DNA of 64,000 nucleotides from Norana najaformis (taxonomy: Eukaryota; Annelida; Clitellata; Crassiclitellata; Hormogastridae), in contig OZ029927.1 in assembly GCA_964023275.1 (NCBI GenBank), forward strand, positions 24,546,831 through 24,610,830, in the 5' to 3' direction. The first letter of the stretch is position 1. Each line of letters begins with the position of its first letter. The notes under the pieces are model-generated. The model worked only from the letters and a program-made list of their open reading frames with translations. It ran no database searches and had not been told where the DNA came from. Positions 6,480 to 63,284 of the stretch are shown here, piece after piece. The position numbers and the translations under genes are program-made.

Positions 6480-6890
6480 GATAGCTGATTGGATAGAGCG
6501 CTCAGCTTGTATGTGGGTCACGGTAGCTGATTGGTTGGAGCACTCGGCTTAGATGTAGGTCACGGTACCCAATTGGTTGGAGAACTCGGCTTGTATGTGG
6601 GTCACGGTAGCCAACTGGTTGGAGAACTCGGCTTGTATGTGGGTCACGGTAGCCAATTGGTCGGAGAACTCGGCTTGTATGTGGGTCACGGTAGCCAATT
6701 GGTTGGAGAACTCGGCTTGTATATGGGCCACAGTAGCTGATTGGATACAGCACTCAGGTTGTATGTGGGGCATGATACCCGATTATTTGGAGCGCTCAAC
6801 TTGTATGTGGGGCATGGTAGCTGATTGGATAGAGCGCTGGCTTGTATATGGGTCATGGAAGCTGATTGGATAGAGAATTGTAATTGTAAT
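6480..6890 (+). repeat. 42-bp minisatellite, array 1 (about 9-10 units)
   Basis: Tandem 42-bp units reading approximately 'tagccaattggttggagaac' + 'tcggcttgtatgtgggtcac' + 'gg'. The unit closely matches the A-box head of SINE-2 ('ggttagagcgctcggcttgt'). Outer units are more diverged (gatagagcgctcagcttgta). Because 42 is a multiple of three, several frames stay open, giving apparent small proteins in both strands that are artefacts of the repeat. The same unit makes the arrays at 18.9-20.9 kb and 25.3-25.5 kb. Confidence 0.85.
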
Positions 6891-7312: not shown

Positions 7313-7437
7313 CTAACATTTCATACTCAAGCAAGTGCTCTTGTTTTTAGTTTTATAACGTTTGTGTTAATCGAGGCAATGTTGTTTGTTACAGTCAAGC
7401 AAAGCAAAAAAGTTTAGCTGCGTTGAAATCGAAAGTC

Positions 7438-18600: not shown

Positions 18601-21600
18601 ACACATTCATACATAATACATAAAAGTAACATAAAATAGAAATCAACAAAAGGTGGACGTTTCATGATCTGGCATGTTTTCTTGTTGACAGGCGTCGCGA
18701 TTTCCAACCGTCATTGTCTACATCATGGACACAGCGCGTAGCACGAGCCCAGTGACGTTCATGTCCAACATGTTGTATGCCTGCTCAATCCTCTACAAAT
18801 CCAAACTGCCATTTGTTGTAGCCATGAACAAGGTTGGATTTCCTCAGGAACTCTTTCTATGGGGCATGGTAGCCAATTGGTTGGAGTGCTTGGCTTGTGT
18901 CTTGGTCATGGTAGCCTATTGGTTGGAGTGTTTGGCTTGTGTTTTGGTCATGGTAGCCAATTGGTTGGAGTGCTTGGCTTGTGTTTTGGTCATGGTAGCC
19001 AATTGGTTGGAGTGTTTGGCTTGTGTTTTGGTCATGGTAGCCTATTGGTTGGAGTGTTTGGCTTGTGTTTTGGTCATGGTAGCCTATTGGTTGGAGTGTT
19101 TGGCTTGTGTTTTGGTCATGGTAGCCTATTGGTTGGAGTGCTTGGCTTGTGTTTTGGTCATGGTAGCCTATTGGTTGGAGTGCTTGGCTTGTGTTTTGGT
19201 CATGGTAGCCTATTGGTTGGAGTGCTTGGCTTGTGTTTTGGTCATGGTAGCCTATTGGTTGGAGTGCTTGGCTTGTGTTTTGGTCATGGTAGCCTATTGG
19301 TGGGAGTGCTTGGCTTGTTTTTTGGTCATGTTATCCTATTGGTTGGAGTGTTTGGCTTGTGTTTTGGTCATGGTAGCCTATTGGTTGGAGTGCTTGGCTT
19401 GTGTTTTGGTCATGGTAGCCTATTGGTTGGAGTGCTTGGCTTGTGTTTTGGTCATGGTAGCCTATTGGTTGGAGTGTTTGGCTTGTGTTTTGGTCATGGT
19501 AGCCTATTGGTTGGAGTGCTTGGCTTGTGTTTTGGTCATGGTAGCCTATTGGTTGGAGTGCTTGGCTTGTGTTTTGGTCATGGTAGCCTATTGGTTGGAG
19601 TGCTTGGCTTGTGTTTTGGTCATGGTAGCCTATTGGTTGGAGTGCTTGGCTTGTGTTTTGGTCATGGTAGCCTATTGGTTGGAGTGTTTGGCTTGTGTTT
19701 TGGTCATGGTAGCCAACTGGTTGGAGTGCTTGGCTTGTGTTTTGGTCATGGTACCCTATTGGTTGGAGTGTTTGGCTTGTGTTTTGGTCATGGTAGCCTA
19801 TTGGTGGGAGTGCTTGGCTTGTTTTTTGGTCATGTTATCCTATTGGTTGGAGTGTTTGGCTTGTGTTTTGGTCATGGTAGCCTATTGGTTGGAGTGCTTG
19901 GCTTGTGTTTTGGTCATGGTAGCCTATTGGTTGGAGTGCTTGGCTTGTGTTTTGGTCATGGTAGCCTATTGGTTGGAGTGTTTGGCTTGTGTTTTGGTCA
20001 TGGTAGCCTATTGGTTGGAGTGCTTGGCTTGTGTTTTGGTCATGGTAGCCTATTGGTTGGAGTGCTTGGCTTGTGTTTTGGTCATGGTAGCCTATTGGTT
20101 GGAGTGCTTGGCTTGTGTTTTGGTCATGGTAGCCTATTGGTTGGAGTGTTTGGCTTGTGTTTTGGTCATGTTATCCTATTGGTTGGAGTGTTTGGCTTGT
20201 GTTTTGGTCATGTTATCCTATTGGTTGGAGTGTTTGGCTTGTGTTTTGGTCATGGTAGCCTATTGGTTGGAGTGCTTGGCTTGTGTTTTGGTCATGGTAG
20301 CCTATTGGTTGGAGTGTTTGGCTTGTGTTTTGGTCATGGTAGCCAACTGGTTGGAGTGCTTGGCTTGTGTTTTGGTCATGGTACCCTATTGGTTGGAGTG
20401 TTTGGCTTGTGTTTTGGTCATGGTAGCCTATTGGTGGGAGTGCTTGGCTTGTTTTTTGGTCATGTTATCCTATTGGTTGGAGTGTTTGGCTTGTGTTTTG
20501 GTCATGGTAGCCTATTGGTTGGAGTGCTTGGCTTGTGTTTTGGTCATGGTAGCCTATTGGTGGGAGTGCTTGGCTTGTTTTTTGGTCATGTTATCCTATT
20601 GGTTGGAGTGTTTGGCTTGTGTTTTGGTCATGGTAGCCTATTGGTTGGAGTGCTTGGCTTGTGTTTTGGTCATGGTAGCCTATTGGTTGGAGTGCTTGGC
20701 TTGTGTTTTGGTCATGGTAGCCTATTGGTTGGAGTGTTTGGCTTGTGTTTTGGTCATGGTAGCCTATTGGTTGGAGTGCTTGGCTTGTGTTTTGGTCATG
20801 GTAGCCTATTGGTTGGAGTGCTTGGCTTGTGTTTTGGTCATGGTACCCTATTGGTTGGAGTGCTTGGCTTGTATGTAGGTCTTGTTAACCGATTGGTTAG
20901 AGCTTTTGGCTTGTAACGTAGAGAGTAGAGATTCAAGCCTACTCCCCAAATGCAGCTACTGTGTAAGGACCTTCAGGCAAGTCCTTTACTCACAATTTCT
21001 CGGTGCCATCGATTGATGCTCAGTCTTTAGATAGTGGCACGAGTACATCGAGGGCTTGGTATTTACTTCCCAGCTTACACCAGTACCATTCTCCTGCTTG
21101 GTGACAGAGGCATGGTGTTTGGAAACAACTTGCTAGGGTTGTTACACGGAGTCGAACCCACAACCACATGATCATTGACCAAATGCGTTACCAATAGACC
21201 ACCATGCCTCACACCAGGTGTGCTAGGTGTCATCATATCTATAAATAAACGTTACAAGTATGTGCTACGTTTTGTGAACAACAGACGGATATCATCGACT
21301 GTAGCTTCGCTCGTGAGTGGATGACGGACTTTGAGGCGTTTGAAATGGCGCTTGAGAACGATGGCAGGTTCATCTCCAGCCTCACAAGGTCAATGAACTT
21401 AGCCCTTGAGGAGTTCTATAACACACTTAAGGTGAGGTCACCAACAGTTGATTTGTGTAATTGTAACTAGAAATTTATATAGTGCTCGCTTCAGGAGAAA
21501 CTTTTATCAGTGGTGATTGTTGTGCTTGTCTAAATGATATCAATCTGTACTAGCAACAAAAATCAAGGAAATAACAGTACTCAGGTAGTTAGAAGCCACC

Positions 21601-29237: not shown

Positions 29238-31334
29238 ATGTCAGTACTCAACTATTTGATTAGCAAATTGAAGAAGCGACGGTTTTGTTTCAAAGACCAC
29301 ATCATATGGCCACCACGCTCGCTGTGGTTCTTAAAGCTTCTAGTGATCTCAGTATCGTTGGTTGCCTTGCTGTTTATATGGTTACTTGGGTGCTGTGAAC
29401 TGAAAACCTTGACCAAGAAGCTTCGAGTCACAAGTATAACTTTTGACAAGGTGCAAATTTCTATTGGGTCTCAGATCCTGTTTCAGCTTTTTGAACCTGG
29501 ATGGAAGGAGAGCTTAGTCGGATCAATCGGTAAGACAGTGAATAGTGACGATTATAAAATTGTAACGAAAACTGATGCTGAGCTTCTTGTGGAGTTTTCA
29601 AGCGGTGTTCGACTGACTGTATGGCATAATAGAAGTCTTCCAGCCGGTGAAGCTAGTTGTTACAAGATCTTATGGCATTGTTATCAAGGCGCACACAATA
29701 GACTCCAAGATACGTTTTCACTTGAGGGTGCTCGCTGGTATGGTGGATCAGTGGTTAAAGCACCTTTGTGGCCAACCGATCTGTTACAACGCCCTCCGGA
29801 ACCTTTTGTCACAAGAGATTCGTACAACGACCATTACGGTGGTGTTCAGGAACGTTTCTGGCTGTCATCCAAAGGCGTTTCTTTATTTGTCGACCATGAT
29901 GTACCGTTATTTGTGGGTCTTAACGAAGATGGAGATGACATGATCAATTTTATTTCCACATTTTCAAAGCCTTATGGAAACAGCCGTAATCGCACTCTTT
30001 TTCTTAGCTATGCAATCTGCCAGGCGGAAAACATCACTGCTATGTATCTTGCGGCTGCAGGGCGCTTCTGGAAGAAACCATTTGGCATTCCAGATAAAAA
30101 GGCTTTCCGTTATCCAATATGGTCGACATGGGCTGTATTCAAGAACCACATTGATCAAACAAAAGTGATTGATTTTGCAAGAACAATTGACGAAAAGGGT
30201 TTCAAAAACTCCCATTTGGAGATTGATGATGGATGGGCTGAAAACCATGGTGACTTTGACTTCGATTTTGTCAAGTTCCCTGACCCAGTCGAAATGGTGA
30301 ATACCTTGAAGGACAGACTAGGATTTCGTGTAACTCTTTGGGTTCATCCGTTTGCCAGTCTGTTTTCCAGCGCATTCTGGCAGAAGGACTCGAAGGGAAA
30401 CCGAATGTGGATGAAGTTACGACAGGTAGACTTTCCAGCTTGTGTGTTCTGGTGGAATGGATTGGGAGCAGTTCTTGATCTGACGAATCCAGAGGCAGCC
30501 GACTGGTTCCTAAACACTCTGAAGCAGTTGGCAAAACTATATCGTATTGATTCTTTCAAGTTTGATGGCGGTGAATCCGGTTGGCTTTCTTCTTGGGGAG
30601 TGGCAGCGAATCCACTGGACAATCTCAATGACTACACAAAGGCGTTTATAGATGTTGCCTACAATTCCGATACTGAACTGCGGCTTCAAGAAGTCCGAGT
30701 TGGGGTTTCCTCTCAACATCTCCCGATGTTTCTTCGTCTGATGGACAAGGACTCTCACTGGGACTACAGCAACGGCTTGCGGTCTATCATTCCTCACATC
30801 CTGCTGTTTGGAGTGATCGGATATCCGTTTGTGCTTCCAGACATGATTGGTGGCAATGCATACAGCTTCTTTAACATCCAGAGCACCACTTGGCCGGAAA
30901 GAGAACTCTATGTACGCTGGATGGAATTGACAGCGTTTCTTCCAGCGATGCAGTTTTCCGTTGTGCCTTGGCTCTACGATGACGAGGTCGTTCGGATCGC
31001 CCACAAAATGTGCGAACTGCATGAGAAATATGCCGACAAGATCATTGCAGTGGCTGAGGAAGCCACCCGAACGGGTGCACCGATCATCCGACCCTTGTGG
31101 TGGATAGCCCCGCGGGACGAAGAGGCCTTGCAAATTGACACGGAATTCTTGCTGGGAGACGACCTGCTTGTGGCACCCGTCGTGGACCGGGGAGCCAGAG
31201 CCAGGGACATTTACCTCCCAGCGGGAAACTGGAAAGATGAACTGAATGGACGAATTCTCGAAGGCGGAAGATGGTATCGCAGTTTCAGAGTGCTTTTGCA
31301 CGAACTGGCATATTTCACTTTAATACGGGGATAG
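29238..31334 (+). CDS. Membrane-anchored GH31 glycosidase, MYORG-like
   Basis: Predicted 698-residue glycoside hydrolase family 31 protein, similar in length and plan to MYORG (about 714 residues), an ER-resident alpha-galactosidase-type enzyme linked in mammals to muscle and brain. A basic N-terminal segment (KLKKRR) precedes one hydrophobic helix at ~residues 29-52, giving a type II protein with the catalytic part in the lumen. The GH31 barrel is plain: HLEIDDGWAE (~326-335), then SFKFDGGESGW, where Asp at ~443 is the expected nucleophile. MDKDSHW (Asp ~503) fits the acid/base position, and YPFVLPDMIGGNAYS follows. Possible N-glycosylation sites occur (NRT, NIT). I chose the ATG at 29238; the open frame further upstream starts with TTG, and an acceptor-like tttatcaacag ends at 29194, so a non-coding 5' exon is likely. 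The whole coding region is one exon. Substrate cannot be told from the sequence. Confidence 0.9.
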   Translation: MSVLNYLISKLKKRRFCFKDHIIWPPRSLWFLKLLVISVSLVALLFIWLLGCCELKTLTKKLRVTSITFDKVQISIGSQILFQLFEPGWKESLVGSIGKTVNSDDYKIVTKTDAELLVEFSSGVRLTVWHNRSLPAGEASCYKILWHCYQGAHNRLQDTFSLEGARWYGGSVVKAPLWPTDLLQRPPEPFVTRDSYNDHYGGVQERFWLSSKGVSLFVDHDVPLFVGLNEDGDDMINFISTFSKPYGNSRNRTLFLSYAICQAENITAMYLAAAGRFWKKPFGIPDKKAFRYPIWSTWAVFKNHIDQTKVIDFARTIDEKGFKNSHLEIDDGWAENHGDFDFDFVKFPDPVEMVNTLKDRLGFRVTLWVHPFASLFSSAFWQKDSKGNRMWMKLRQVDFPACVFWWNGLGAVLDLTNPEAADWFLNTLKQLAKLYRIDSFKFDGGESGWLSSWGVAANPLDNLNDYTKAFIDVAYNSDTELRLQEVRVGVSSQHLPMFLRLMDKDSHWDYSNGLRSIIPHILLFGVIGYPFVLPDMIGGNAYSFFNIQSTTWPERELYVRWMELTAFLPAMQFSVVPWLYDDEVVRIAHKMCELHEKYADKIIAVAEEATRTGAPIIRPLWWIAPRDEEALQIDTEFLLGDDLLVAPVVDRGARARDIYLPAGNWKDELNGRILEGGRWYRSFRVLLHELAYFTLIRG

Positions 31335-35506: not shown

Positions 35507-36313
35507 TCATCATCATCATCATCATCATGATCCATGGGCCGAGAGCCCGTAGGTGTCCACTGCATGCATTGTCACTTGTCTCCACAGTTCCCGATCTTGT
35601 GCTGTTCTTATCAAGGCGTGCAAGTCTTGCTTACACCAATCCCTTATATCATCTGTCCACTCCCTGTTAGGTCTTCCTCGTCTCCCATTTCCGTCCATAA
35701 TTCCCATCATCACGCTTTTTATTTTTCTACTGTCATCCATCCTGCATATAGGCCCTATGTCCAAACAAGCGTAATTTCCTTCTCATTATTACTTGTATTA
35801 GATCTTCTTTTATGCTCAGTCTTCTTCGGACCTCCGTATTTGTTACCTTCATTGTCCAATTCAGATGTAATATTCGTCTATAGCAGTACATTTCAAATGC
35901 TAATATCTTATCTTTATCCGTCTTTTTGATTGTCCATGCCTCACATGCATACAGAGCTGTGCTAAACACACATGTTTTCAAGACGTTTAGTTTGGTCTTG
36001 TGGCTTATTTTCCTGCTTTTCCAGATGTTGTTTAGCCCTGCCATAACTCCTTTTGCCTTTATTATTCTTGCCTTTATGTCTTTTGCGCAATCATTATTCC
36101 ATGTCATGAGACTTCCTAGGTACACAAACTCCTTTACATTTTCAATCACCTCATCTTGCACTTTAATTTCCATGTCTATTGTCTCCTTGTCAAAACACAT
36201 TGTTTTTGTTTTATCCACATTTATTTTTAGGCCAGCATGTTCGGCAAGTAGGTTCAGTCCGCACACATTTTCCTGCAGCCTGTCGCAGCTGTTCGCCAGC
36301 AGGTCAATGTCAT
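35507..36313 (-). pseudogene. 5'-truncated LINE with 14-bp target-site duplication
   Basis: The element's own coding strand is minus. It begins at the DD of the reverse-transcriptase YADD motif (DDIDLLA), runs through the thumb region (HAGLKINVDKTKTM, FVYLGSLMTW, ALYACEAWT) to the C-terminus (GRRGRPNREWTDDIRDW), and ends in a (GAT)n tail at 35507. A frameshift at ~35735-35764, caused by roughly ten extra bases, breaks the reading. The sequence 'cataaatcacttca' flanks it on both sides (35493-35506 and 36314-36327), a clean target-site duplication. It lacks the endonuclease and most of the reverse transcriptase, so it cannot move on its own. The RT segment is of the non-LTR type often labelled endonuclease-reverse transcriptase; the clade is uncertain. 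Confidence 0.88.
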
Positions 36314-36329
36314 CATAAATCACTTCAGG

Positions 36330-37925
36330 GACCTATATATTAATTTAAAGGACTTATTGTAATTCACTTTAGAGGCCTATAAATGCCTATTTATTTAAAA
36401 GACTTACTACACAAGCGAAATCAGTAAATCTGTATGTAAGGCGCGGATGAATATTCATATTCTTCACCTTGTTATTAAAATTTATACACAAAACTAAAAG
36501 AATTTCACAAATATGGAGGCCATCATCCAGTCTTAACACACACTGAATTTCTACATAATATTACGGCCTATACGGAATGGGTAATGCTCAAGAAACGGTC
36601 GCTTCGATCGCCCTACTCATAACCAACATGGCCGCCACAGACTGCTAGAGAAATTAGAGTGCTGCATGATGCCGTAAGGACTCCCAATAAATAAGTAAGT
36701 GAGTAATCCGTAAATGGTTTCCACGAGGACATGTGGATAAGTGTTGTTCCTATATGCATCACAGAAACTTGGCCGATTTCGTAATTTACTGATACCTATA
36801 GCAATATATTTTCGAACAAACTTTGTGTTACTCTGCGATTCTTCATTTATTGACACACCAATAAAAGTACTTTAATAACTTTGTGTTAGTCTGTTACTCT
36901 GTTACTGTATTTTAATAATTTTGTGTTCAGACTGTCTCCAACTGAAGTTAGGCCTACATCTTCCCCATAGAGTGCGCTTCTGCCCATAGATCTGAGATAA
37001 AATGTGGAGCAGAGAATTGGGTCAGCAAGTTGCCATGTCGTTTTAGCATATCTTTCCTTTCACCGATTTCAATATTTACCACGATTAAAGATTTATATTG
37101 ACTTTAGTATTTAAAGAATGATCCTTGTTTTTGGCAAACATAGCAGAAAGAAACCGGCCCACAGAGACAGACAGACAGACACGCAGACAGACACGTGCAC
37201 ATAGACAGACACACAGACTGATTACATAGTTACAGTTAGACGGAGAGGCAAGACAGACGACAGATATACACACAAACAGGCTGATTACAGAGGTACCATT
37301 AGACGGACAGACAAGACAATAGACAGACAGACAGACAGACAGACTAGTTCACTGATGTATTTGCTGAGAACAAAACTGACTGATCTCTAACTCAGTTCCT
37401 TGTATAAATTGACTCACAATTTCAAGTAGTGTGTAAACGTTTGCGTGGCTAGAACCTGTCAATCAAACTCTGTGAGTCCCTGTGACGCACCTGCTTGCCG
37501 TGTGGCGCACAAGAAAGAGACAGACAGACAGTAAGACAGACAAATACAGAGACACAGTTTCTATAAAACGGCGCCAGATCGCTCGCAGTTGGAAAAGACC
37601 GAGGAACATCATTGGAACCGGAATTCTAACATTTACATAGCGCCTTTAAGAATAAGTCTTGTCAGATTCGCGAATCCACACGGGTTCCATTAATAAGAAC
37701 TCTGGGTAGATGACTCAGGCGCAAAATTGAGAAAGAACTTAGACTTGAATCACGGATCCCAAAATTCAGACTAAGATCTAGACTTGGCAATCCAGGACTC
37801 TAATTTGGAATCCAAAATGTCGGACTCGCCAATCCAGAACCTTGACTTTCGAATCTAGGCGTAGGACTTTGAAACAATATTTCACGTAAGAACCTCCTGT
37901 CAAAGACAAGAAGAAGAGGCGAGAA
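36330..37925. other. Intergenic, upstream of EFh-1
   Basis: No gene recognised. An AGAC/CAGA-rich microsatellite lies at 37140-37345 and again at 37510-37550. At 37740-37865 there is a diverged short repeat built on 'gact...aatccaga' blocks. The EFh-1 promoter should be here, but no TATA box comparable to those of EFh-2 and EFh-3 was found. Confidence 0.45.
37140..37345 (+). repeat. CAGA microsatellite
   Basis: Interrupted (CAGA)n runs, densest at 37165-37195 and 37315-37345. Confidence 0.85.
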
Positions 37926-39133
37926 ATGGACTCGTCATCTGAAGCCAAGTACACGATTGGTGCCATTGTCCAAGCAGACGAGAGACGAAGTCAGCTGCGC
38001 GAGTCATTCGCTGGGTTCGACCGCAACCGAGATGGATTCATTACATGCGATGAACTGACGGATGTCTGGACAAAGTGTCTACGCATCTGCAACGAAAACG
38101 TCCCAGAAGAACGGGTCAAGAACGAGGTCACGGTAGGAATCCGATTAATATAGGCCGATTCATCAATATGTATGTATGTATGTATGTATGTATGCATGTA
38201 TGTATGTATGTATGTATGTATGTATGTATGTATGTATATATATATATTGTATGCATGTAGGTATGGATGGATGGATGGGTGGGTGGGTGGGTATGTGTGG
38301 GTGGGCATTGGGTGGGTGGATGGATGGATGTATTAATGGATGGATGAATGAATGAATAAATAAATAAATAAATAAATTGATGGGTAAATGGATAGATGGG
38401 TGAATGGCTGGAAGCATGGATGGATGGAAGGGTTGGTGGGTGGGTGGGTGGGTGGGTATGTGTGGGTGGGTGGGGATTGGGTGGGTGGATGGATGGATGG
38501 ATGGATTAATGGATGAATGAATGAATGAATGAATGAATGAATGAATAAATAAGTAAATGAATTGATGGGTGAATGGATAGATGGGTGAATGGCTGGAAGC
38601 ATGGATGGATGGAAGGGTTGGTGGGTGGGTGGAGAAGTTGAATTTCATGGGAATCCTAAAGATATGATCGATTTTAACCAATTAATCAACCGGTCGATTG
38701 ATTTTCCAATTCATCATTTCAGAGATTCATGGCCGACTTGGACAAAGACAAGGACGAAAGGATCAGCTTCGACGAATACGTCAACTACTTCGAGAATCTC
38801 TGGACTCAGAAGGAAGCCAAGCACCGCAGACTCAGGTCAGTCTGAAGAGCAAGGGAGGCACACAGACAAACAGACGGACAGAGACATATATCACGTGATA
38901 TCTATCATACATACGTTATATATATATCACGTGATGTATGATATGTATCACGTGAAATATATCATATATCACATAATATATATCGTATATTACTTGAAAC
39001 TTTTTATTTTAGCCAGAAACTTACTCAGACGACCGATAGCCAGACAACTACTCCATCCGATCGGATTCGTCGGAGACCAGCACCACGTGCTCAACCACCG
39101 GAACGGTTCCAGTCCAATGCAAAGCGGACTTAA
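37926..39133 (+). CDS. EFh-1: two-EF-hand calcium-binding protein (3 exons)
   Basis: Exons 37926-38132, 38723-38835 and 39013-39133, GT-AG introns, give a 146-residue protein. EF-hand 1 has a canonical loop DRNRDGFITCDE (~residues 32-43); EF-hand 2 has DKDKDERISFDE in exon 2. Calcium binding by both is expected from the acidic residues at loop positions 1, 3, 5 and 12. The third exon encodes a basic, proline/threonine-rich tail without known motif. There is no signal peptide, so the protein is probably cytosolic. The intron between the two EF-hands sits at the same place and phase (0) as in EFh-2, EFh-3 and EFh-4, just before RFMADLDKDKD here and HFLSQADRDKD there, which argues for common ancestry. 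Start: the only ATG ahead of EF-hand 1, in good context (gaaATGG). It is convergent with EFh-2. Confidence 0.85.
38158..38640 (+). repeat. Compound tetranucleotide microsatellite filling EFh-1 intron 1
   Basis: (TATG)n at 38158-38240, then long GGAT, GGGT, GAAT and AAAT runs to ~38640, with one block of about 180 bases partly duplicated. It takes up most of the 590-base intron. Histidine/serine/proline-rich open frames on the minus strand are artefacts of the repeat. Confidence 0.95.
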
Positions 39134-40010: not shown

Positions 40011-41159
40011 CTACCTCTTAGCAAGTAGACGTGGGGAGTAGTACTCAACGAACTCTTGCTGGGTGACCTGGCGGTCTTTGTCCCTATCTGCCTGGCTCAA
40101 GAAATGCTGAAAAAATTATAAGCGCAGCATGAACTCTGAGGAAGTAAGGAAGTGATAAAGTTATTCAGTGAATATACAAACGAAGTTTAATTAATTTTTT
40201 AAGATAATCAAATGAAATTCTGGACTCTCATCGCCATAGTCAAACACAAACTATATATCACTGTAAGAATACACAACCCTGCTCTCTAACGAATAAACTA
40301 AGAACTCCATTGCTCCTACTGCCATCTATTGAATAACAGTGCAGTGATAGCTTATAATGTTTAACAGGAAGTTGCTTTTTCTAGTCGCCAGCTCGAAGAT
40401 TTACTTAGTCCAAAATGGCACTGAATAGAGTTTACACTGAATCAATTCTCAACGCATCAACCAACTCGGATATCTTGAAACCACGCTACTTAAATAAGGT
40501 AAATTAAATTATCATAAATGGAGCTAAGCTTAACCATTTCGTTATTGTTTTACTTTGTTTTTTGAAGTCCATCAATTTTACAGGCACAGATGAAGCTTTG
40601 TTGAGTTTATATATTAAATAGTTGGTGCTGATTTACCTCTTTACTTAGAAAAACAGATTTGATCTAAATTCTTGGTTGTAAACTTGCGAGTAGGCCTACA
40701 ATATAGTTCTAGTGGTTAAAGTTAAAACTTAGAGAAATTTATGCTATGTAACTTACAGTTAAATCATTCATTGGACCAACAGTCTAAAAGACTTTGTATA
40801 AATATGCTGTGTATTATGAAGAACCTGGATAACTCCGCCACTGCTTTAGTCGTGTAGTGCCAGTCTCAAGCCTGGATAAAGGAGGAGTGCGACGCCAACG
40901 GTCTTTGATGCCATTAGATGTCGTTAAACATTGGAACTACTACTACTACTATTACTACTACTACTATTACTACTACTACTACAAAGAACCTAGATAGTCT
41001 TACGGCTGCGAACTGCCAAATGGTTTCATCGTCCAGGTTCTCGTGGCTGTAACGCTTCAGCGCCGTCACTACATCCTTGGCATCGATGTGACCTCTTCTG
41101 TTACTGTCAACCTCCAGGAAGGCTTTCTGGAGAGCCTGTCTCAGCTTAGCCTCCGACAT
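40011..41159 (-). CDS. EFh-2: small two-EF-hand protein (2 exons)
   Basis: Exon 1 is 41159-41004 and exon 2 is 40106-40011. Donor GTAAGA, acceptor after tttttcag, phase 0. The product is 83 residues. EF-hand 1 loop: DSNRRGHIDAKD, with Arg at position 5 and Asp at 12, so weak or altered metal binding is likely. EF-hand 2 loop: DRDKDRQVTQQE, with acidic residues at 1, 3, 5 and 12 but Arg in place of Gly at 6. The protein is little more than one EF-hand pair, like a half calmodulin; no signal peptide or membrane segment is seen. Start: the ATG of EKMSEAKLRQ, in the position shared with EFh-3, 97 bases below a TATA box. Three more exon-1-like copies upstream (42.5, 43.7, 44.6 kb) have no last exon of their own and could in principle splice to this one. 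The intron (897 bases) holds a (TAC)n run at 40936-40982 and an antisense unclassified repeat at 40850-40935. Confidence 0.83.
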
Positions 41160-42422: not shown

Positions 42423-42578
42423 GGCTGCGAGCTGACAAATGGTTTCATCATCCAGGTCGTCGCGGCTGCATAGTTTAATTGCAGTCGCGATGTCCTTGGC
42501 ATCCATATGACCTTTCCTGTCTCTGTCAACCTCCAGGAAGGCTTTCTGGAGCGCATGTCTGAGCTTAGCCTCGGCCGT
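42423..42578 (-). pseudogene. EF-hand exon-1 copy A2, probably dead
   Basis: The same 52 codons as EFh-2 exon 1, with an open frame, an EF loop DRDRKGHMDAKD and an intact GTAAGT donor. The start codon position reads ACG (EKTAEAK), and a LINE tail (42678-42912) is inserted immediately upstream of its TATA-like TAAAAG. No last exon follows before that of EFh-2 at 40.1 kb. It could be an alternative exon of EFh-2 or a decaying gene copy; the missing start and broken promoter favour decay. Confidence 0.65.
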
Positions 42579-43650: not shown

Positions 43651-43806
43651 GGCTGCTTGCTGCCAAATGGTTTCATCGACCAGGTTGTCGTGGCTGCATC
43701 GTTTCGGCGCAATTACTATGTTCTTGGTATCAGTATCTGCTCTTCTGTCTCTGTCAGCAAATAGGAAGGCTCTCTCGAGGGCCTGTCTGAGCTTAACCTC
43801 AGGCGT
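43651..43806 (-). pseudogene. EF-hand exon-1 copy A3, degenerate
   Basis: Aligns over 52 codons with EFh-2 exon 1 and keeps a GTAAGT donor, but the start position is ACG (EKTPEVK). The EF loop DRDRRADTDTKN has lost the central Gly, and the TATA box reads TATTAAA. A LINE fragment (43940-44410) splits its upstream region. Most likely a pseudogene. Confidence 0.7.
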
Positions 43807-44577: not shown

Positions 44578-44736
44578 AGCTGCGAGCTGCCAGATTGTGT
44601 TATAGTCCAGGTCATCGTGGCTGTAACGTTTCAAAGTAATCACTACATCTTTTGTTGCATCAATGTCATCTCTCCTCTCTCTGTCAGCCTCTAGGAAGGC
44701 CTTCTGAAGGGCCTGTATGAGCTTAGCCTCGGCCAT
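44578..44736 (-). CDS. EF-hand exon-1 copy A4 (possible alternative first exon or partial gene)
   Basis: Exon of 53 codons with an ATG in the family position (ERMAEAKLIQ), a perfect TATAAAAG at 44835-44842 and a GTAAGT donor. The EF loop is disturbed: DRERRDDIDATKD has one extra residue and no Gly at position 6. No last exon follows before EFh-2's at 40.1 kb, so it would have to splice over three other exon-1 copies to make a protein, or else is a recent decaying copy. Of the three surplus copies this is the only one with both start codon and TATA box. Confidence 0.5.
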
Positions 44737-48371: not shown

Positions 48372-50008
48372 TTACTTCTTAGGAAGTAGAACACCAGTGT
48401 AGTACTCGACGAACTCCTGTTGGGTGACCTGGCGATTCTTGTCCCTATCGCCTTGGCTCAAGAAGTACTGAAAAACACGATAAGCATAGCATGAGCTCTG
48501 AGGAAGTAAGGAAATTGCTTTTCATAGTCGAAAACATAGTAATATCTCACAGTAGTATCTTAAAGTAGTATCTCATAGTAGTGTATGTTAGTCTATGGTA
48601 ATGTATCTCGTGCTGCTGCGCTGATACCGCTTCTGTGAACATGCTAATACGAAAAAAAATTGAAGCAGAAATAGACAAAATGAAAAGTAGACATAGTTTT
48701 AGTGGTAATATTATTTTTCTCATTCGAGTCTCAGTCCTCCAGACAATCGTGCTCCGTCTTCACAGTGAAACCTTGGATGCTGAGGAGGAAGGGCGAATAG
48801 AGTCTTTGGAGCGGCACCTACCGTCAACCACGGAATGACTCACTACCTACTGGCCGGTGATCGTCGAATGTCTTTTCTGCTCATATCCGGCTGTTCGAGG
48901 GATATCCGGACGCCATGTCGTCTTCGATCTACAACTGCCTGACGATGAGTTGCCGTGAGCCATCGACGGTGGGTTCCACAGCCTACATCGTTCCTCATAA
49001 TCGATGCTACTTGCTTCAGGAGCTCTGAACATGCTGTCATCTATCAACCCCAGTTGGAAATCTGTTAAACGAATGTTCCGTTCTCAATGACATTTAGTAT
49101 CTTTAAGGCACAGAGATCGTCTCTGCTTAGTTTCTCACGAAGAGGCGCTATGAAAACTTCTGACTATAATTATAATTAAATTATAAGTATTATTACAATT
49201 ACAATTGTCACTGGTGACTTTCTAGTCATCTAAACAGTGACTAATAATGGATGAATGTTCGATTCTGAGAGACAATTCCAGGTAGATGGCCCAACCAGTG
49301 AGAAGGCGAGGCGTTGTACTTGTCAAAGGAATAACAATTTTACCAGGGGCCGTGGAGCGAAGAATTCCGCGTCCAGCCAAACCCGAAACGGGAAATCAAA
49401 GCCCACGCAACTAGGAAGGCACACCCCACAACTGACATCGACAGACCCATATGAAAATCTGGCAGCCAGACTGGATCATCACAAGCATAATGCAACACGT
49501 AGTGAAATTTGGAAATGCCAACAGTAACACGCAGGAGTCGTTCAAGCTTCCCAGGTTGTCGGGGTTAACAAACAAAGAATACATAATACTGTAATAAGCG
49601 TTATTGTGGTACCTTAAGCACATAAATTGTAAGTTAAAATGCATTTAAAGTGACCGGATATATAACGCAGCAGAACCTAAAACATTTGCCACAGGATTCC
49701 GATTTTTGAATGTGGATTTCCATGAATCCACGAGTTGATCGTGTGGGATTGACGCGCACGACAATAACTGCACTATAGAAGTTTAGACTTCAGATAAGAC
49801 AAGATGGAACCGACATTCTAAAGCACGACTTATAATATAAAGAACTAGTTAGACTTACGGCTGCGAGCTGCCAGATGGTTTCATCTTCCAGGTTGCTGTA
49901 ATGCCTCAGCGCAATCACTACGTCCTTGGTATCAATGTGACCTCTTCTTTCTTTGTCTACCTCTACGAAGGCTCTCTGGAGAGCCTGCCTGAGCTTCAGC
50001 TCGGCCAT
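48372..50008 (-). CDS. EFh-3: small two-EF-hand protein (2 exons)
   Basis: Exon 1 is 50008-49859 and exon 2 is 48467-48372, phase-0 GT-AG intron of 1391 bases, 81 residues. EF-hand 1 loop: DKERRGHIDTKD (Arg at 5, Asp at 12). EF-hand 2 loop: DRDKNRQVTQQE, with Asn at position 5. It has the same plan as EFh-2, with the pair linker two residues shorter (HYSNLEDETIW). Start: ATG of EKMAELKLRQ, 75 bases below TATAAAAG, with no other in-frame ATG between. A 3' UTR block of about 180 bases is shared with EFh-2, the 53.4-kb pseudo-exon and EFh-4. The intron holds an antisense LINE remnant (49255-49530). All expected splice, start and promoter signals are intact, so this is the best candidate for an active small gene of the cluster. 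Confidence 0.85.
49255..49530 (-). repeat. LINE remnant in the EFh-3 intron, antisense
   Basis: Antisense relative of 47150-47450: both plus strands carry 'ggaacaac/ggaataac' and 'ttc(c)c(cg)c.ttcagccaaac' blocks in the same order. Heavily broken. Confidence 0.45.
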
Positions 50009-53373: not shown

Positions 53374-53463
53374 CTAAAATTCGGATACTAAAGAGTAGTG
53401 CTCGACAAACTCCTGTTGGGTGACGTGGCGGTTCTTGTTCTTTTCAGCCAGACTTAATGAGTA
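53374..53463 (-). pseudogene. Dead EF-hand last exon
   Basis: Aligns with the last exons of EFh-2, EFh-3 and EFh-4. It still reads RHVTQQEFVEHYS and ends in TAG. It is 90 rather than 96 bases long, the EF loop reads EKNKNRHVTQQE, and the acceptor has been lost (tttattactcat in place of a ttttcag end). No matching first exon lies between it and EFh-4. It marks a vanished gene copy. Confidence 0.75.
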
Positions 53464-53519: not shown

Positions 53520-54600
53520 TAGTCGCAAACACGAGGTATTATTACTAAGTCCTAAACTGCGTTGAGTACATGGAAACCATTTTTCAACGTATCAACCAAC
53601 TCTGATATCTTAAAGCCACGCTACATAATTAAGAAAAGGTACCATAAGTTGAGCAAAACTTAAAATCTGCGTTACTGCTTTAATGACTCTGCTTTTTGAA
53701 GTGCATGAATTTCACAAACAGGTTCAAGCTTTATTGAGTTTATTTATTCAGTAGTTTTTGTATGTATATGGGTATATGTCTGGCTATTTAAATGGCGCCT
53801 TTCAGGATCCTCACAAGCGCATTAAAACATGGCTATCTAACAGTTCTAAAAAAGGATGCGATTTAATATGAGTAGAAAATGTTTCTTAAGCTTTTTCTTT
53901 TTAAAGCACGTTTTCAGAGGAAGGTTGTTCCAATACACGAGGACGCACGGTATGTCCGTATCATCTCACACGGGATTGTGGGACCAGCACTCCCCATGCG
54001 CCGCTGAACCATTGATCGTCGACAGAAATCCAGGCGTGTTCCTCCATGGACAGTTCTTCATCCGGAAGCACTCCAAAGTCCCGGACGACGTGTTGTACTT
54101 TCCAGTCCCGAAAATCGGTCGTCATCGTCTATGTCCATCTTAGAACGTCTTAGCGGGATTCAGCCTCAGCATTCAGTTTTCAGTCCCAGTCGTTCGAGAA
54201 CATCCATTCCTGCACCCGTGCCACGATTACCTCCATGTTTGACGCATAAGCCATTTTGCCAGTTAGGTGATGTGTCAGGTACTGCTGGACGTCATCAGGG
54301 TATCGATGAACCCGCACCCCGCAGCAATAATAATCTTAGACAAATCGGCCGAATGTACAAGTCCTTCGTTGAACTGTAGTAGCTTAGAATAGTCATTGAT
54401 TCAAACTAGCAGACAGAACCTGTCTTACTTAAAACAACTAGGTCTCACTTAGGTAAAGTAAGGTAAGGCAAGGTAAGTTAAGGTAAGTTAAGGACGACAA
54501 GGTAAGGAAAGAAAATTTCTGGTTTATTATGTGCCTTTACCAGCAGTTATCCTACAAGGCAAGACCCAACTTGGGAGTGAGAAATGTTTCCGATGAAACA
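53520..54600. other. Intergenic, with an unassigned coding-like island
   Basis: 53860-54380 is richer in GC than its surroundings and has two partly overlapping plus-strand open frames (95 and 82 codons) in different frames. I do not recognise the peptides. It could be a broken retrocopy or a LINE piece. The AGGTAAGGTAAG-like runs at 54460-54500 are shared with 52.2-52.3 kb. Confidence 0.35.
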
Positions 54601-54604
54601 CACA

Positions 54605-55150
54605 TATGTCCATATGTCCATTACTGCAACTCTGTACTTGCTGGTTTGCCTGAGTATCGGCTGTCTTCCCTTCAATCAGTACTAAATTCTGCGGCCAGGT
54701 TAATATCACGTCTTCCTCGTTTCTCTCTTATCTCTGATTACATCATTCAGCAACTTTATTGGCTCCCTATCCAATCTCGTATTCACTTTTAACTATTATC
54801 ACTGGTAATAAGAGCTCGCATGGGCCAGGCTCCAAAATATCTTTGTGATCTTATTCGGCCTCCACACTCTATTACCTCATACCGCCCATTACGTTCTTTA
54901 GATCGTATGGATCTATTTGTTCCTTGTGTTAAGTCCTCTCTTGCTCAGCAGAGGGCTTTTGCTGTTGTTGGCCCATCTCTCTGGAACGAACTTCCGCTAT
55001 CGCTTCGTGCTAGGGTCACTGTTGTTAATAGAGCTCAGTCAGCTCGTTGTTTAAAGACGTTCTTATTTCCCAGGGGGTCTCACGCTGGAAGAGCCTCCGA
55101 GTAGTTTGTTCTGTAAGAAGCGCTATATAAGGTATCAAATACAAATACAA
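54605..55150 (+). pseudogene. CR1/L2-like LINE 3' end
   Basis: Reads HYCNSVLAGLPEYRLSSLQS, VLNSAARLISRLPRF, LYWLPIQSRIHF and, after a stop, VVGPSLWNELPLSLRARV, a classic CR1/L2 C-terminal region. It ends in an (AAATAC)n microsatellite at ~55110-55150. One or more breaks near 54790. It interrupts sequence that is continuous in the related flank at ~52.38 kb, so it inserted after that duplication. Confidence 0.85.
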
Positions 55151-55312: not shown

Positions 55313-55318
55313 TTTATT
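55313..55318 (-). terminator. Candidate poly(A) signal for EFh-4
   Basis: AATAAA on the minus strand about 530 bases after the EFh-4 stop; the related flank has the same hexamer near 52521. Confidence 0.4.
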
Positions 55319-55848: not shown

Positions 55849-58800
55849 TTACTGCTTAGAAAGTTGACGAGCTTGGTAGTACTCGACAAACTCCTGCTGA
55901 GTTACCTGGCGGTCCCTGTCTCTGTCAGCCTGCCTCACGAAATGCTGAAAACATTAAAAGCAAAGCATGAGCTCAAGTAAAAAAGGGAGATGCTTTTTTT
56001 GCAAAATAACATTTAACCAGCATGACACTGGCGTCTGCAGGCACTGTATATCCATATAAAAATGCGTCATTCACCGGAACTAACACGCTTGAAGACAGTA
56101 GCTTCTCATTATGATCGGAGTAAATTCGAGTGCAGCATTTCGATACAGTAGGGCACTACAAAGTCCAAAACTGCAAATCTGCAGTGTGTTGAGAACTCGA
56201 TCACCCGATTGGCGACACAAAATCGTAGGTGTGCTCACGTCATACATGTAATAAAAAGTCAAAAAATGGCCGCCTGGAAGGTCCAGGATATCTTGAAAGA
56301 AGCCTCTCCTTACACGCAAGATTCTCTCAACATACAAACCTAACTACTTCCGACGTCTTACTTAGAGATCTTCCAGCAACCAGATTTCAGAGATCAGCTA
56401 CACAAAAACCATTTGCTTCTCCCTGATATCAGGCTCACTCGGGTGAAGTTTCCTGCGGTGAATTCAACAATTCGACACCAGCCATCATCCAACACCGATG
56501 AGGTTAGAATAGATTAGGCAAATTGCATTGGGCCGTTATAAAAATATCTTAAATTGCCTAATGAGACAACACTTACGGCTGCCTCCTGTCTGATGCGTTC
56601 ATCGTCCAATCTCTCTTGGCTTTCTTGACTGTCTCTGTAACGTCTAAGTGCCAACTCTACGTCTCTGGCTGGAATTTGACCTCTCCCGTCTATGTCAACC
56701 TCCTGGAAGGCCCTCTGGAGAGCTCTTCTGATCTGAGCCCCTGCCAATCTTTGAGCAAGTAGACGAGACTGGTAGTATTGGACGAACTCCTGTTGGGAGA
56801 CCTGGCGGTCCTTGTCTCTTTCAGCCTGGCTGACGAAATGCTAAAAAAATCAAGAAAAAGCATGAACTCTAAGGGAGTAATGAGTTGTTTTGTGTCATTC
56901 TCGACTCCAGTGTAACATTTAACCAGCATGTCACTGGTGCAGGCAAGGCACTGTATTTGCATACAAAAACGCAGGCGTAGCTTGTAGTATGGTCAGGTTA
57001 AAACTCGACTACTGCAATTTAATACAGTGTGACATAATAAAACCCCACATTGCCAAACTGCCACATGTTGTGAACTATTAGTGAAACAAACCCATAGGTG
57101 AATTCACACTATTAATGCATTAAAAAGCTAGAATGGCAGCCTATCAGGTTCAGAATCTCTTAAAAGATTGTTCCCTTTTCACACAAGATTATTTTTCAAC
57201 ATATCAACCTGCTTAGTTGCGTTGCCTTCCTTACAGCGCTGCTAGAAGCTCCGGACTCTACGATCGGCTACAAAAAGCTGCTTGTCTCTCCACATGTAAA
57301 GAGTATAGGTCTAAGTTCTTCCGAGGCGGATGCAAGAAGCCATCGTCCAAAACTTATGAGGTTATATTACACAGGCCGCTTTAAAGATACTTTGAATTGC
57401 ATAACTAGACATGACTTACGGCTGCCTCCTGTCTGATGCGCTCATCGTCCAATCTCTCTTGGCCTTCTTGACTGTCTCTGTAACGTCTCAGTGCCGCATC
57501 GACTTCTCTGGCTGGAATTTGACCTCTCCTATGTCTGTCGACCTCCTGAAAGGCCCTCTGAAGAGCTTGTCTTAACTGAGTCTGTGCCAATTGCTGAGCC
57601 TGTAGACGAGACTGATAGTATTGGACGAACTCCTGTTGGGCGACCTGGCGATCCTCGTCTCTTTCAGCCTGTCTGGCGAAATGCTGAAAAAATTTAACCA
57701 AAACATTAACTCTAAAGAAGCAAGGGAATTGGTTTTTATACTTTTGGGGTGACGGTAAACACTTAATATAATTTACTTAATATGCCAACGCTTTTGACAA
57801 AATATCATTTTCCAGCTAAAAGCAACGCATAACGGGAACATATGAGAACAGTCTTTGTAGCATAATCAGAAGAAAACCCGACTACTGTTATTCGCTGCTA
57901 TATGGTATTACCAGGTCTAACACTGTCAAACTCCTATGAGTCGAAAACTCGATGGCCCGACCGATGACAAAAACATAGTTGTGGTAAAGTCGCCTCAGTA
58001 ATGGAAAACCAACATTGACTGTCTGTCAGGTCCAGAATAAATTACAAAGTGTCTCTCCTTGAACAGAAGACTCTCTCAACTAATAAACCTGCCTCTTTCT
58101 GACGTCTTGCTTAGTGGGCTAAGAGCCACCTAGATTTCGGCGATTGACTGTGCAAAAAACCGTTTGTCGCTTTTTCATGTAATCGACTATCGAAAGAATT
58201 TTTCCGAGTCGGATTCAACAATTCTGCATCAGCCATCATCTATCCCAGATGCCGTCAAAATTGCAATGGACCGCTATTAAAATAACTTGAAATGCATAGC
58301 TAGACAACACTTACGGCTGCCTCCTGTCTGAGACGTTCATCGTCCAATCTCTCTTGGCCTTCTTGACTGTCTCTGTAACGTCGAAGTGCCAACTCTACGT
58401 CTCTGGCTGGAATTTGACCTCTCCTGTCTCTGTCGACCTCCTGAAAGGCCCTCTGGAGAGCTTGTCTGATCGGAGCTCCTGCCAATCTCTGAGCCAGTAG
58501 ACGAGACTGGTAGTGTTGGACGAACTCTTGTTGGGAGACCTGGCGGTCCCTGTCTCTCTCAGCCTGGCTCACGAAATGCTTCAAAAATGAAAACCAAACC
58601 ATGAAATCAAAGTAAGTAACAGTACTGATATTTACACTCTTCGGGTGAGGGTAAAATATAAATTTCTTTAAAAATTATTATGCTACCGCTTCTTCCAAAA
58701 CATCAATTCCCAGATAAAAGCCATGCATAGCGAAAACTTATAGGAACAGTCGTTGTAGAGTACTCGGAAGGAAACTCGACTTGTGTAATTCGCAATCATA

Positions 58801-61800
58801 TGGAATTTCAAATACTAGTATTGAAAAACTGCAATCTCTCCAAAACTCGATGGTCCGACTGTTGAAAAAACTGACAGATGTGGCAACGTCGCCTAAGTAC
58901 TGGGAAAGCTATATTGGCTGTCTGGCAGGTTAGGAATCAATTACAAACTGTCTTCTTACATACAAGACTCTCTCAACATTTTAAAATGCTTACTTGCGAC
59001 GTCCTACTGAGTGTGCTAACTTCCACCCAGATTTCGGCGATCAGCTACACAAAAACCATTTGCCTCTATTTGATGTCAGTGTAATGAGGTGATTGATCTC
59101 CCAAAACGGATTTAGAAATTATGCACCAGCCATCATCCAATACAGATCAGGTTAGAAGAAATTAGACAGATTGCAATGGGACACCATAAAAATATTTTAA
59201 ATTGCATAACTAGAGATGACTTACGGCTGCCTCCTGTCTGATGCGTTCATCGTCTAATGTCTCTTGGTGTTCTTCACTGTCTCTGTAACGTCTCAGTGCC
59301 AACTCAACATCTCTGGCTGGGATCTGACCTCTCCTGTCTCTGTCAACCTCCTGGAAGGCCCTCTGGAGAGCTTGTCTGAGCTGAACCTCTGCCAATCTCT
59401 GAGCCTGTAGACGAGACTGGTAGTGTTCGACGAACTCCTGTTGGGACACCTGGCGGTCCTTGTCTCTCTCAGCCTGGCTCACGAAATGCTGAAATATAAA
59501 AACGAAACCATGAACAAGACGGTAAAGGATATGGTTTTATACTAATGGGAAGACGGTAACCTACAAATTTCATTGAATTCGCAGGCAACTGCCGCTGGCA
59601 AAATATCATTTTTCAGATAAAGGCCTCGAATAAAAAATGAAAAGTCTTTGTAGTGTAGTAAGGAGAAAACCGACTACTCTAATTCGCTGTTCTACAGCAC
59701 CACAAGGCCTAATGTTACTAATCTCTCCAAACTTCGATGGCCCGATTGATGACGAAAGCCGAGAGGCGTGCTAACGGTGCCTCAGTATTGGAAAACCTAC
59801 ATTAGCTCTCTGTCAGGATCAAGACAACAGCTTTCCTTGCATAATAGAATCTCTCAACATATAAACTTACCTACTTGCGACTTCGTTCGTAGCGGGAAAA
59901 CATCGACAACTGCTCCTGTGATAAGTTGCACAAAAACCAATTCCCTTTCCCTGAGTTCAGCACCATAGGGTGATTGATATCCCGAGAAGGATTGGGCGAT
60001 TCTTCCTCAGCCAAAATCCAGCTCAGGTGATGTTAAAAGAGATTTGACAGAATGCAATGGGATGCTATAAAAATATTTTGAATGGCATAACTAGACATGA
60101 CTTACGGCTGCCTCTTGTCTGATGCGTTCATCATCCAATTTCTCTTGGCCTTCTTGAATGTCTCTGTACCGTCTTAGTGCCGCATCCACTTCTCTGGCTG
60201 GGATTTGACCTCTCCTGTGTTTGTCGACCTCCTGAAAGGCTCTCTGGAGAGCTTGTCTGATCGAAGCTCCTGCCAATCTCTGAGCAACTAGACGAGACTG
60301 GAAGTGTTCGATGAACTCCTGTTGGGAGACCTGACGGTCCCTGTCTCTCTCAGCCTGTCTTTGGGAGACCTGGCGGTCCCTGTCTCTCTCAGCCTGTCTT
60401 TCGGAGACCTGGCGGTCCCTGTCTCTCTCATCCTGTCTTTGGGAGACCTGACGGTCCCTGTCTCTCTCAGCCTGTCTTTCGGAGACCTGGCGGTCCCTGT
60501 CTCTCTCATCCTGTCTTTGGGAGACCTGACGGTCCCTGTCTCTCTCAGCCTGTCTTTCGGAGACCTGGCGGTCCCTGTCTCTCTCAGCCTGTCCTTGGGA
60601 GACCTGGCGGTCCCTGTCTCTCTCAGCCTGTCTTTGGGAGACCTGGCGGTCCTCGTCTCTCTCAGCCTGTCTCACGAATTCCTAAAAAAATTAAGAGCAA
60701 AGGATGAACCCTAAAGGAGTAAAGAATTTGCTTAATATGATTTTCGATTCTAGTCTAACTTTTAGCCAGCATGTCACTGGTGTCTGCAATGCATTGTATT
60801 TACATACAAAAAGGCATGCATCAGCCAAACTTACATGTATGAAGACAATAGTTTGTTCTATGGTCATGGTAAAACTAGAGTAATGTAATTCAATACTCTA
60901 TGATACAATAAAGTACAACATTGCCAAACTAAAATGTGTTCTAAGCGATTGGTAAAACACACCGGCAGGTGCGTTCACGCTTAAACTGTGTTGATAAAGC
61001 TCTAAAGGCTGCTTGTGTGGTCAAAAATCTCTTGAAAGATGCCTCTCTTTCCACTCAAGACCTTCTGAGCATATCAACCTGCTTGCTTGCTTCTTTCGAA
61101 GGCTTGTAGCATGCTCTGCACCAGCCATGGTCCAATACTGATGAGGTAAGATAAGACAGAATGCAAAGGACCGTTATAAAAATGTTGAATTGCTTAAAGA
61201 AAACTCACGGCTGCCTCCTGCCTGATGCGTTCATCATCCAATGCTTCTTGGTTTTGTTCGCTGTCTCTGTAACGCCTCAGCGCCAATTCTACGTCTCTCG
61301 CTGAGATTTGACCTCTCCTGTCTCTGTCGACCTCACGGAAGGCCCTCTGGAGAGCTTGTCTGATCTGAGCTCCTGCCAATCTCTGAGCACGTAGACGAGA
61401 CTGGTAGTGTTCGACGAACTCCTGTTGGGAGACCTGGCGGTCCCTGTCTCTCTCAGCCTGGCTCACGAAATGCTTCAAAAATGAAAACCAAACCATGAAT
61501 TCTAAGGAAGTAAGGGAACTGGTCTTTAAGGGTTTGGGAGCGACAATAAAATATAAATTTCATATAATATTCATGCAACCGCCAACTGCAAAAATACATT
61601 ATTTTTCCAGATAAGGGACAAGTACAACTGGAGCTTATAAGGACAGTCGTTGTAATGTAGTTAGAAGAAAACTTGACTACTGTAATTCGCTGACATATGG
61701 CATTACAGGGACTAGTATTGCCAAACTGCAATCTATCCAAAACTCAATGCCTCGAGTGATTACAAAAACCGAGAAGTGTTGTAAAGTCCCTTCAGTACTG

Positions 61801-63284
61801 GAAAACCCACAATGCCTGTCTGTCGGTAGGGTTCGGAAACAGTTACGAAGTGGCTCTCTTTCCACACAAAACTCTCAGAACGTATAAGCTTGCGACGTCT
61901 TCCTTAGTGTGCTATCTGGACGATTAGCGATTAGCTATAAAAAAAAAACATTTGCCGCTCTTTGATATCAGCACTGAAGGGTATATTTTCTCAAGGCAGA
62001 TTCAGCAATTCTGCACCAGCCAACATTTAACCCAGATGAGGTCAAAATAGATTAAACAGACTGCAATGGACCGCAATTAAATTATTTTGAATTGCATAAC
62101 GAGACGTAACTTACGGCTGCCTCTTGTCTGAGACGTTCATCGTCCAATCTCTCGTGGCTTTCTTGACTGTCTCTGTAACGTCTCAGGGCCAAATCAACAT
62201 CTCTGGCAGGGATCTGACCTCTCCTGTCTCTGTCAACCTCCTGGAAGGCCCTCTGGAGAGCTCTTCTGAGCTGAGCCTCTGCCAATCTCTGAGCCTGTAG
62301 ACGAGACTGGTAGTAGTCGACGAACTCCCGTTGGGCGACCTGGCGGTCCTTGTCTCTCTCAGCCTGTCTCACGAAGTGCTAAAACAATGAAAACCGAAAC
62401 ATAAAGCCTAAGGTAGTAACCCGGTTGCTTTTCATACTTTTGCGATGAATATCAACCATAAATTTCATTTAATTTGTATGCCACCGCCACCCGCAAAAAC
62501 CGTTTATCCAGGTACAGGCCCAACATGCCGGAACACATGAGAAAAGTCTTTGTAGTGTAGTCAAAAGAAGACACGAATACTCTAATTCACTGTTATATGG
62601 CACTAGAAGGTCTAACACTGCCATACTGCAAAGAATCCAAATCACGGTGGCCCGATTGATGACAAAAGCCGTCAGGTGTGGTAACGTCTATACTGTACTG
62701 GGAAAGCTACTTTGATTGTCTGTCAGGACTAGAACCACTTACAACATGGCTTTCCTTACACACAAGACCCTCTCAACATATGAACTTATTAACATGCGAC
62801 GTCTTCCTGAGTGTGCTAACAGCCATCCCGACCTAAGCGATTGGATACACAAAAATCAGTTGCCTCTCCCTGATATCAGCGTTATCGGGTGATCTAACTA
62901 CAGAGGAGGATTCATGAATTATGCATCACGCATCATCCAGTGCAGATCAGGTTAGAATAGATAAGACAGACTGCAAAAGGGCGCTATAAAATATTTTCGA
63001 TTGAATGAGACAACACTTACGGCTGCCTCCTGTCTGATGCGTTCATCGTCCAATCTCTCTTGGCCTTCTTGACTGTCTCTGTAACGTCTTAGTGCCGCCT
63101 CCACTTCTCTAGCTGGAATTTGACCTCTCTTGTCACTGTCGACCTCCTGGAAAGCCCTCTCAAGTGCTTGTCTGATCTGGGCTCCTGCCAATCTCTGTGC
63201 AAGTAGACGAGACTGGTAGTGTTCGACGAACTCCTGTTGTGCGACCCGGCGGTCCCGGTCTCTCTCAGCTTGTCTCACGAAATG
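55849..63284 (-). CDS. EFh-4: giant multi-EF-hand protein, tandem-exon array (5' end outside window)
   Basis: Nine exons in minus-strand order: 63284-63021, 62378-62115, 61472-61209, 60681-60106, 59488-59225, 58578-58315, 57683-57420, 56840-56577 and the last, 55944-55849 (stop TAA). Seven are exactly 264 bases (88 codons), one is 576, and the last is 96. Every donor is GTAAGT- or GTGAGT-like and all introns are phase 0, giving at least 839 residues. Each full exon carries the second EF-hand of one pair (ERDRDRQVSQQE-type loop) and the first of the next (DRDRRGQIPARD-type loop), so splicing rebuilds EF-hand pairs: about 17 motifs here. The odd loops have acidic ligands at 1, 3, 5 and 12; the even loops have Arg at 5 and Asp at 12 and may bind poorly. 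The product is very rich in Arg, Gln and Glu, with no signal peptide visible. The first exon is missing: the first visible exon begins at an acceptor. Whether all exons are used in one transcript is inferred. Confidence 0.85.

Follow-up and report, generated by a model that had tools for sequence, protein, structure and literature searches.

An array of EF-hand exons in Norana najaformis, probably forming one giant gene with few canonical calcium loops

We identify, on the minus strand of a Norana najaformis contig, a predicted gene of 23 coding exons whose structure is open and phase-consistent throughout; one framed TATA motif lies ahead of the first exon (X1), which opens with ATG, and one stop closes the last. 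We consider it probable that this is one giant gene which arose by in-frame fusion and tandem multiplication, that it encodes a calcium-independent structural repeat protein, and that the length of this protein is changed by germline exchange.

Results

The window, by which we mean the whole stretch of 64,000 nucleotides analysed, is contig C15 24546831-24610830 of a host assembly of 608 Mb in 17 contigs. A preliminary description had reported a row of repeated EF-hand exons near its end, with common splice sites and phase, and was right about their number, length, phase and place: on the minus strand, 55849-63284 contains nine exons, of which seven are exactly 264 bp long, one is 576 bp long and the terminal one, with a stop, is 96 bp long. 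AG precedes all nine and GT follows the eight non-terminal ones, all in phase 0. The spacing of these eight is 843-1103 bp.

55849..55944, minus strand: X23, terminal coding exon, second half-pair with stop TAA; its EF2 loop DRDRDRQVTQQE fits the canonical pattern
56577..56840, minus strand: X22, internal exon of 264 bp, phase 0 at both ends
57420..57683, minus strand: X21, internal exon of 264 bp
58315..58578, minus strand: X20, internal exon of 264 bp
59225..59488, minus strand: X19, internal exon of 264 bp
60106..60681, minus strand: X18, expanded internal exon of 576 bp (264 + 8 x 39 bp)
61209..61472, minus strand: X17, internal exon of 264 bp
62115..62378, minus strand: X16, internal exon of 264 bp
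63021..63284, minus strand: X15, internal exon of 264 bp, the most 5' exon within the window

In protein, the 3'-most 264-bp exon shares 81-91% identity with the six others of that length. DNA identity among the eight internal window exons is 82-93% (the expanded exon trimmed), and that of the eight introns between the nine exons is 56-72%. The 39-bp unit of X18 codes for a 13-residue EF-loop segment.

This first observation is real, yet it is only the 3' part of a larger array. A single-exon query against the organism's own genome gave at least 32 matches, with all those listed on contig C15, among them a minus-strand run of 22 from C15 24603407 to 24624494; a second family query gave at least 31, and all listed matches to the two queries are at C15 ~24.59-24.71 Mb. 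From ten flanking stretches, with 163,670 bases scanned using half-exon models, we found that the array continues for ~14 kb past the window end, where X1 and the 13 internal exons X2-X14 are located.

L031:376-639 (flanking stretch), minus strand: X14, the next exon past the window end
77592-77422 in window numbering (C15:24624252-24624422), minus strand: X1, first exon with the start MAEVQ..., beyond the window end

The minus-strand gene model thus comprises X1, 21 internal exons (X2-X22) and X23. Internal exons are exactly 264 bp long in 18 of 21 cases; the expanded ones are X9 (498 bp, 264 + 6 units of 39 bp), X12 (615 bp, 264 + 9 units) and X18. The 22 introns, which measure 312 to 1595 bp, are without exception phase 0 and bounded by GT and AG, the donor being GTAAGT in 21 and GTGAGT in one. 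Premature stops are absent from all 23 exons. The spliced model has 6,708 bases and 2,235 residues (~270 kDa predicted), with a computed pI of 6.1, 20% Arg, 16% Gln, no Trp and one Cys; its N-terminus enters the first EF-hand helix at once, and by eye there is no signal peptide.

The model holds 22 EF-hand pairs, each split over an exon border. Every internal exon begins with the second half of a pair and closes with the first half of the following one, and in neighbouring single-unit genes a first half, a phase-0 intron and a second half with a stop follow one another. Both layouts bear out the earlier proposal that exon borders fall inside an EF-hand pair. It also holds that any exon joined to any other keeps the frame and rebuilds a pair, because each internal exon is a second half plus a first half.

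These single-unit relatives lie in the same window and beyond it:

49859..50008, minus strand: MAELK... first exon, from a two-exon gene with a single unit; its TATAAA, framed by GGC..GCC, begins 82 bp ahead of the ATG
48372..48467, minus strand: second exon with stop, partner of 49859..50008
41004..41159, minus strand: MSEAK... first exon, from another single-unit gene
40011..40106, minus strand: second exon with stop, partner of 41004..41159
44578..44736, minus strand: first exon (MAEAK...), possibly decaying; no second exon recognised before the next first-exon copy
43651..43800, minus strand: first-exon copy without ATG, probably decayed
42423..42575, minus strand: first-exon copy without ATG, probably decayed
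53392..53457, minus strand: lone second-exon copy, probably a remnant; no AG at the expected acceptor place
89478-89648 and 90676-90765 (window numbering), plus strand: single-unit gene past the window end

More EF-hand half-exons occur at C15 ~24.64-24.71 Mb (window numbering 89478 to ~158660), where 9 of 10 first halves tested have canonical loops; with this further run the cluster spans at least 110 kb. On the plus strand, 37971-38063 and 38726-38821 are EF-hand-like stretches with more canonical-looking loops, the former above the EF-hand_6 cut-off (25.6 versus 25 bits) and the latter above none. Pattern searches for relatives in viral and prokaryote contigs gave 40 and 125 matches, none of them confirmed by tblastn.

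Elsewhere in the window, a 42-bp minisatellite at 18865-20914 (48.8 copies, 95% match) leaves two forward frames open over 2 kb, and a diverged array at 6482-6869, also of 42-bp period, resembles it by eye. A long plus-strand open frame at 29145-31334 matches glycosyl hydrolase family 31 over 29238-31334 (8e-24), and another at 7351-8895 (plus strand, 514 residues) has C2H2 zinc-finger matches. Open frames at 35733-36332 (minus strand) and 54487-55104 (plus strand) may be remnants of retroelement reverse transcriptase genes, which they resemble by eye; a Pfam search of 54793-55104 returned no match.

The framed TATA motif GGCTATAAAAGCC (TATAAA in the frame GGC..GCC) is found exactly before X1 and before the first exons starting at 50008 and 44736, with 106, 82 and 106 bp, respectively, from the start of TATAAA to the ATG. 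Before 41159 it has two changes, and it was not found before the copies at 43800 and 42575. On the minus strand of 55000-78500 it occurs once, before X1. Plain TATAAAA is present 8 times in array introns, which counts against a single promoter. AATAAA lies at 55318, ~530 bases past the stop, and also occurs 5 times inside the array.

Calcium loops were compared, on their letters only, with the PROSITE EF-hand pattern PS00018, which has Asp at position 1, Asp, Asn or Ser at 3, a ligand at 5 and Glu or Asp at 12. Two of the 44 array loops match and 42 have lost the pattern; judged by sequence, the array protein departs from the canonical calcium-binding EF-hand. EF1 loops resemble DRDRRGQIPARD, and all 22 have Arg at ligand position 5. 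EF2 loops resemble ERDKDRQVSQQE, with Glu at position 1 in 20 of the 21 internal exons; X9 and the terminal exon X23 have Asp there. In the EF2 loops listed, positions 3 and 5 are acidic, as is position 1 in 22/22 EF1 loops. The pattern is matched by 0/3 first exons and 2/3 second exons of the nearby small genes, and by 9/10 first halves and the one second half (1/1) of more distant neighbours. From this distribution, EF1 seems to have been altered in the subcluster before the array grew, and EF2 within the array.

Membership of the EF-hand superfamily is indicated by profile matches of X22 at the curated cut-off, in a scan of X22 and X18: X22 scored 31.4 bits for EF-hand_7 (cut-off 30) and 25.4 for EF-hand_1 (cut-off 25.4), and X18 scored 29.3 bits, below cut-off. 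In PDB sequence searches a single-unit neighbour matched calcineurin B best (4e-5), and centrin; X22 with the terminal exon matched a calmodulin-like domain kinase best (4.6e-7), and calmodulins. An AlphaFold2 model of X22, run with the seven window exons of 264 bp as its alignment, has helices at 5-50 and 58-87 (pLDDT 77, pTM 0.35) and runs through the EF2 loop as a continuous helix, a weak model drawn from 7 sequences and containing no natural pair. X18 alone was modelled as a helix at 2-134 over the 13-residue units (pLDDT 88, pTM 0.37), again weakly, from 1 sequence without a natural pair; single-sequence models of charged repeats tend towards helix. A fold search of the 88-residue X22 model against the PDB found none at E<=0.001, its one match (E 8.9) not being meaningful.

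These loops bear on what the protein does. It could be a calcium buffer or sensor in which the number of calcium sites varies and more pairs mean more capacity, as would suit its EF-hand fold family (the EF-hand_7 score of X22) and the acidic residues kept at EF2 positions 3 and 5 and at EF1 position 1. Against this stand the invariant Arg at EF1 position 5, the Glu at EF2 position 1 in all but one internal exon, and a canonical fraction of 2/44 compared with 9/10 for the first halves of more distant neighbours. We regard this as improbable, if the least improbable of the alternatives, and the same figures speak against the variable calcium-site number that had been suggested for the locus.

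Exon skipping is possible as far as the reading frame goes. Within 19 of the 21 internal exons there is, in addition, an in-frame AG before the EF of EFV (often CAACAG; for example, at window 56789), which leaves other splicings open; if this inner AG were used instead as the phase-0 acceptor, the EF2 loop would be lost. The gene might even be a cassette gene, in which the first half, one of the 21 internal exons and the terminal half are combined into four-EF-hand isoforms of calmodulin size; its exons are all phase 0 and interchangeable, and the framed TATA motif and the terminal exon are each present once. The uniform consensus donors on 22 introns, however, would rather suit constitutive inclusion, and since any number of exons joins equally in frame, exclusivity is not forced. 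This second alternative is unlikely too.

Exon turnover is suggested further upstream, where X8-X10 and X11-X13 form a near-identical three-exon block (98-100% over the last 255 bases of each exon). Over these 255 bases X8, X11 and X14 are 98-100% identical, X9 and X12 99%, and X10 and X13 100%; the introns I8/I11, I9/I12 and I10/I13 are 98.5%, 95.4% and 98.0% identical. The block could be a recent three-exon duplication or in part an assembly effect. As a duplication it supports a recent change in length, and lends indirect support to the copy-number change that had been proposed.

Were the block an assembly duplication of two haplotypes, the gene would be real and three exons shorter. Its intron identity of 95-98.5% is within the allelic range of many marine invertebrates, in which allelic difference reaches such values. 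The block is, however, internal and three exons long, and X12 is longer than X9 by three 39-bp units. X8 has a third copy in X14 (100% over 255 bases), after which different exons follow, and none of the 14 internal exons outside these copies exceeds 93% identity to any other. We rank this explanation third among the alternatives and consider it doubtful.

Across the 21 internal exons (last 255 bases of each), 206 of 210 pairs had dS above 0.05; in these, mean dN was 0.114, mean dS 0.396 and the median ratio 0.286, with dN/dS below 0.5 in 198 of 206 pairs and a highest value of 0.81. Neutral copies were simulated at 0.10, 0.15 and 0.20 changes per site, with 500 runs per rate; every run left at least 8 of 21 with a stop, and the average was 15 to 19 of 21, compared with 0/21 observed. 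The array is not chance because dN/dS is low and stops are absent against this neutral expectation, and we conclude from these comparisons of coding sequence that purifying selection acts between units.

At the unit border, none of the 21 internal exons has a stop and 20 lack Met; the border residue is Met in X2, Ile in X3 and X4, and Leu in the remaining internal exons. An explanation as independent small genes or as dead copies in a row, to which the two separate two-exon genes and decayed copies at 40-50 kb and the intronic TATAAAA motifs might point, fits badly with these borders, with a framed TATA that occurs once, with low dN/dS and with 23 exons free of premature stops, and is very improbable.

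The border also points to how the array may have originated. The second exon at 40106 ends ...CTTGCTAAGAGG, then a stop, and the second-exon end carries AAGAGG before the stop. First exons have GAAAGG (44736) or GAAAAG (77592, 50008, 41159 and the plus-strand gene) before the ATG. In X2, which is among the two most diverged internal exons, the border reads ...CTTGCTCAAAGG, then ATGGCC. This short similarity at the unit border suggests that a first exon became attached, in frame, to the end of a second exon.

Discussion

We propose that an in-frame fusion of a second to a first exon, over a short sequence that both have, dropped the stop, untranslated ends, intergenic DNA and promoter between them, and that the fused two-exon, two-EF-hand gene then multiplied in tandem into one gene of 23 exons. 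All exons would be spliced constitutively into one ~270 kDa protein that lacks a signal peptide and is mostly alpha-helical. This predicted protein is long and charged and would be cytoplasmic, perhaps a scaffold or spacer without need of calcium in most units.

From their letters, most loops probably no longer bind calcium, and such a loss suggests units with a structural or scaffold role that is independent of calcium, by analogy in the manner of S100A10. That protein has an EF-hand fold which works without calcium, as we propose for the array, but is small and dimeric rather than a repeat array.

Other known systems share part of the arrangement. The helix-loop-helix pair is common to the array and to EF-hand_7 (PF13499) and EF-hand_1 (PF00036) pair proteins, and the phase-0 intron between EF1 and EF2 is common to it and to the cluster's two-exon single-unit genes; unlike either, the array has 22 fused pairs and has lost canonical ligands in 42 of 44 loops. 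EF-hand pairs and distant sequence similarity link calmodulin, calmodulin-like domain kinase, centrin and calcineurin B to the array, but these have four hands and canonical loops and are not known to have an exon array. The calmodulin/troponin C family has four hands in a short chain, compared with 22 pairs in the spliced model, which would come down to four hands only if one cassette were used per transcript.

The fused-type S100 proteins trichohyalin and filaggrin combine, like the array, EF-hand ancestry with charged or Q-rich repeats of variable number. They open with one S100 pair and have non-EF repeats in one large exon, whereas in the array the EF-hand pair is itself the repeat, one per exon, with repeats in 21 separate exons of two EF half-pairs each; the array is therefore not of the S100 fused type. 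Artemia polymeric globin and the nematode polyprotein allergens are, like the array, copies of small single-domain genes fused into one, but have other folds, and the allergens are cut into units. In an open-access library, and for the words searched, we found no animal example of an EF-hand pair multiplied as a phase-0 exon array.

Protein length would be set in the germline, by unequal exchange between phase-0 exons together with slippage of the 39-bp unit. Since the exon border halves the EF-hand pair, every exon exchange would rebuild complete pairs, and the germline could lengthen or shorten the rod. As a tentative extension, a giant calcium-independent EF-hand rod may change by steps of 88 residues (13 within expanded exons), and individuals may differ in its length as normal polymorphism; we hold this to be possible rather than likely.

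The change of one ligand per loop suggests a route from a calcium-binding fold to a structural repeat. One cluster contains parent-type genes, the putative fusion junction, the product of multiplication and a block duplication that looks fresh, and with all of these stages visible together, the path by which a small EF-hand gene gave rise to a giant repeat protein would be directly traceable.
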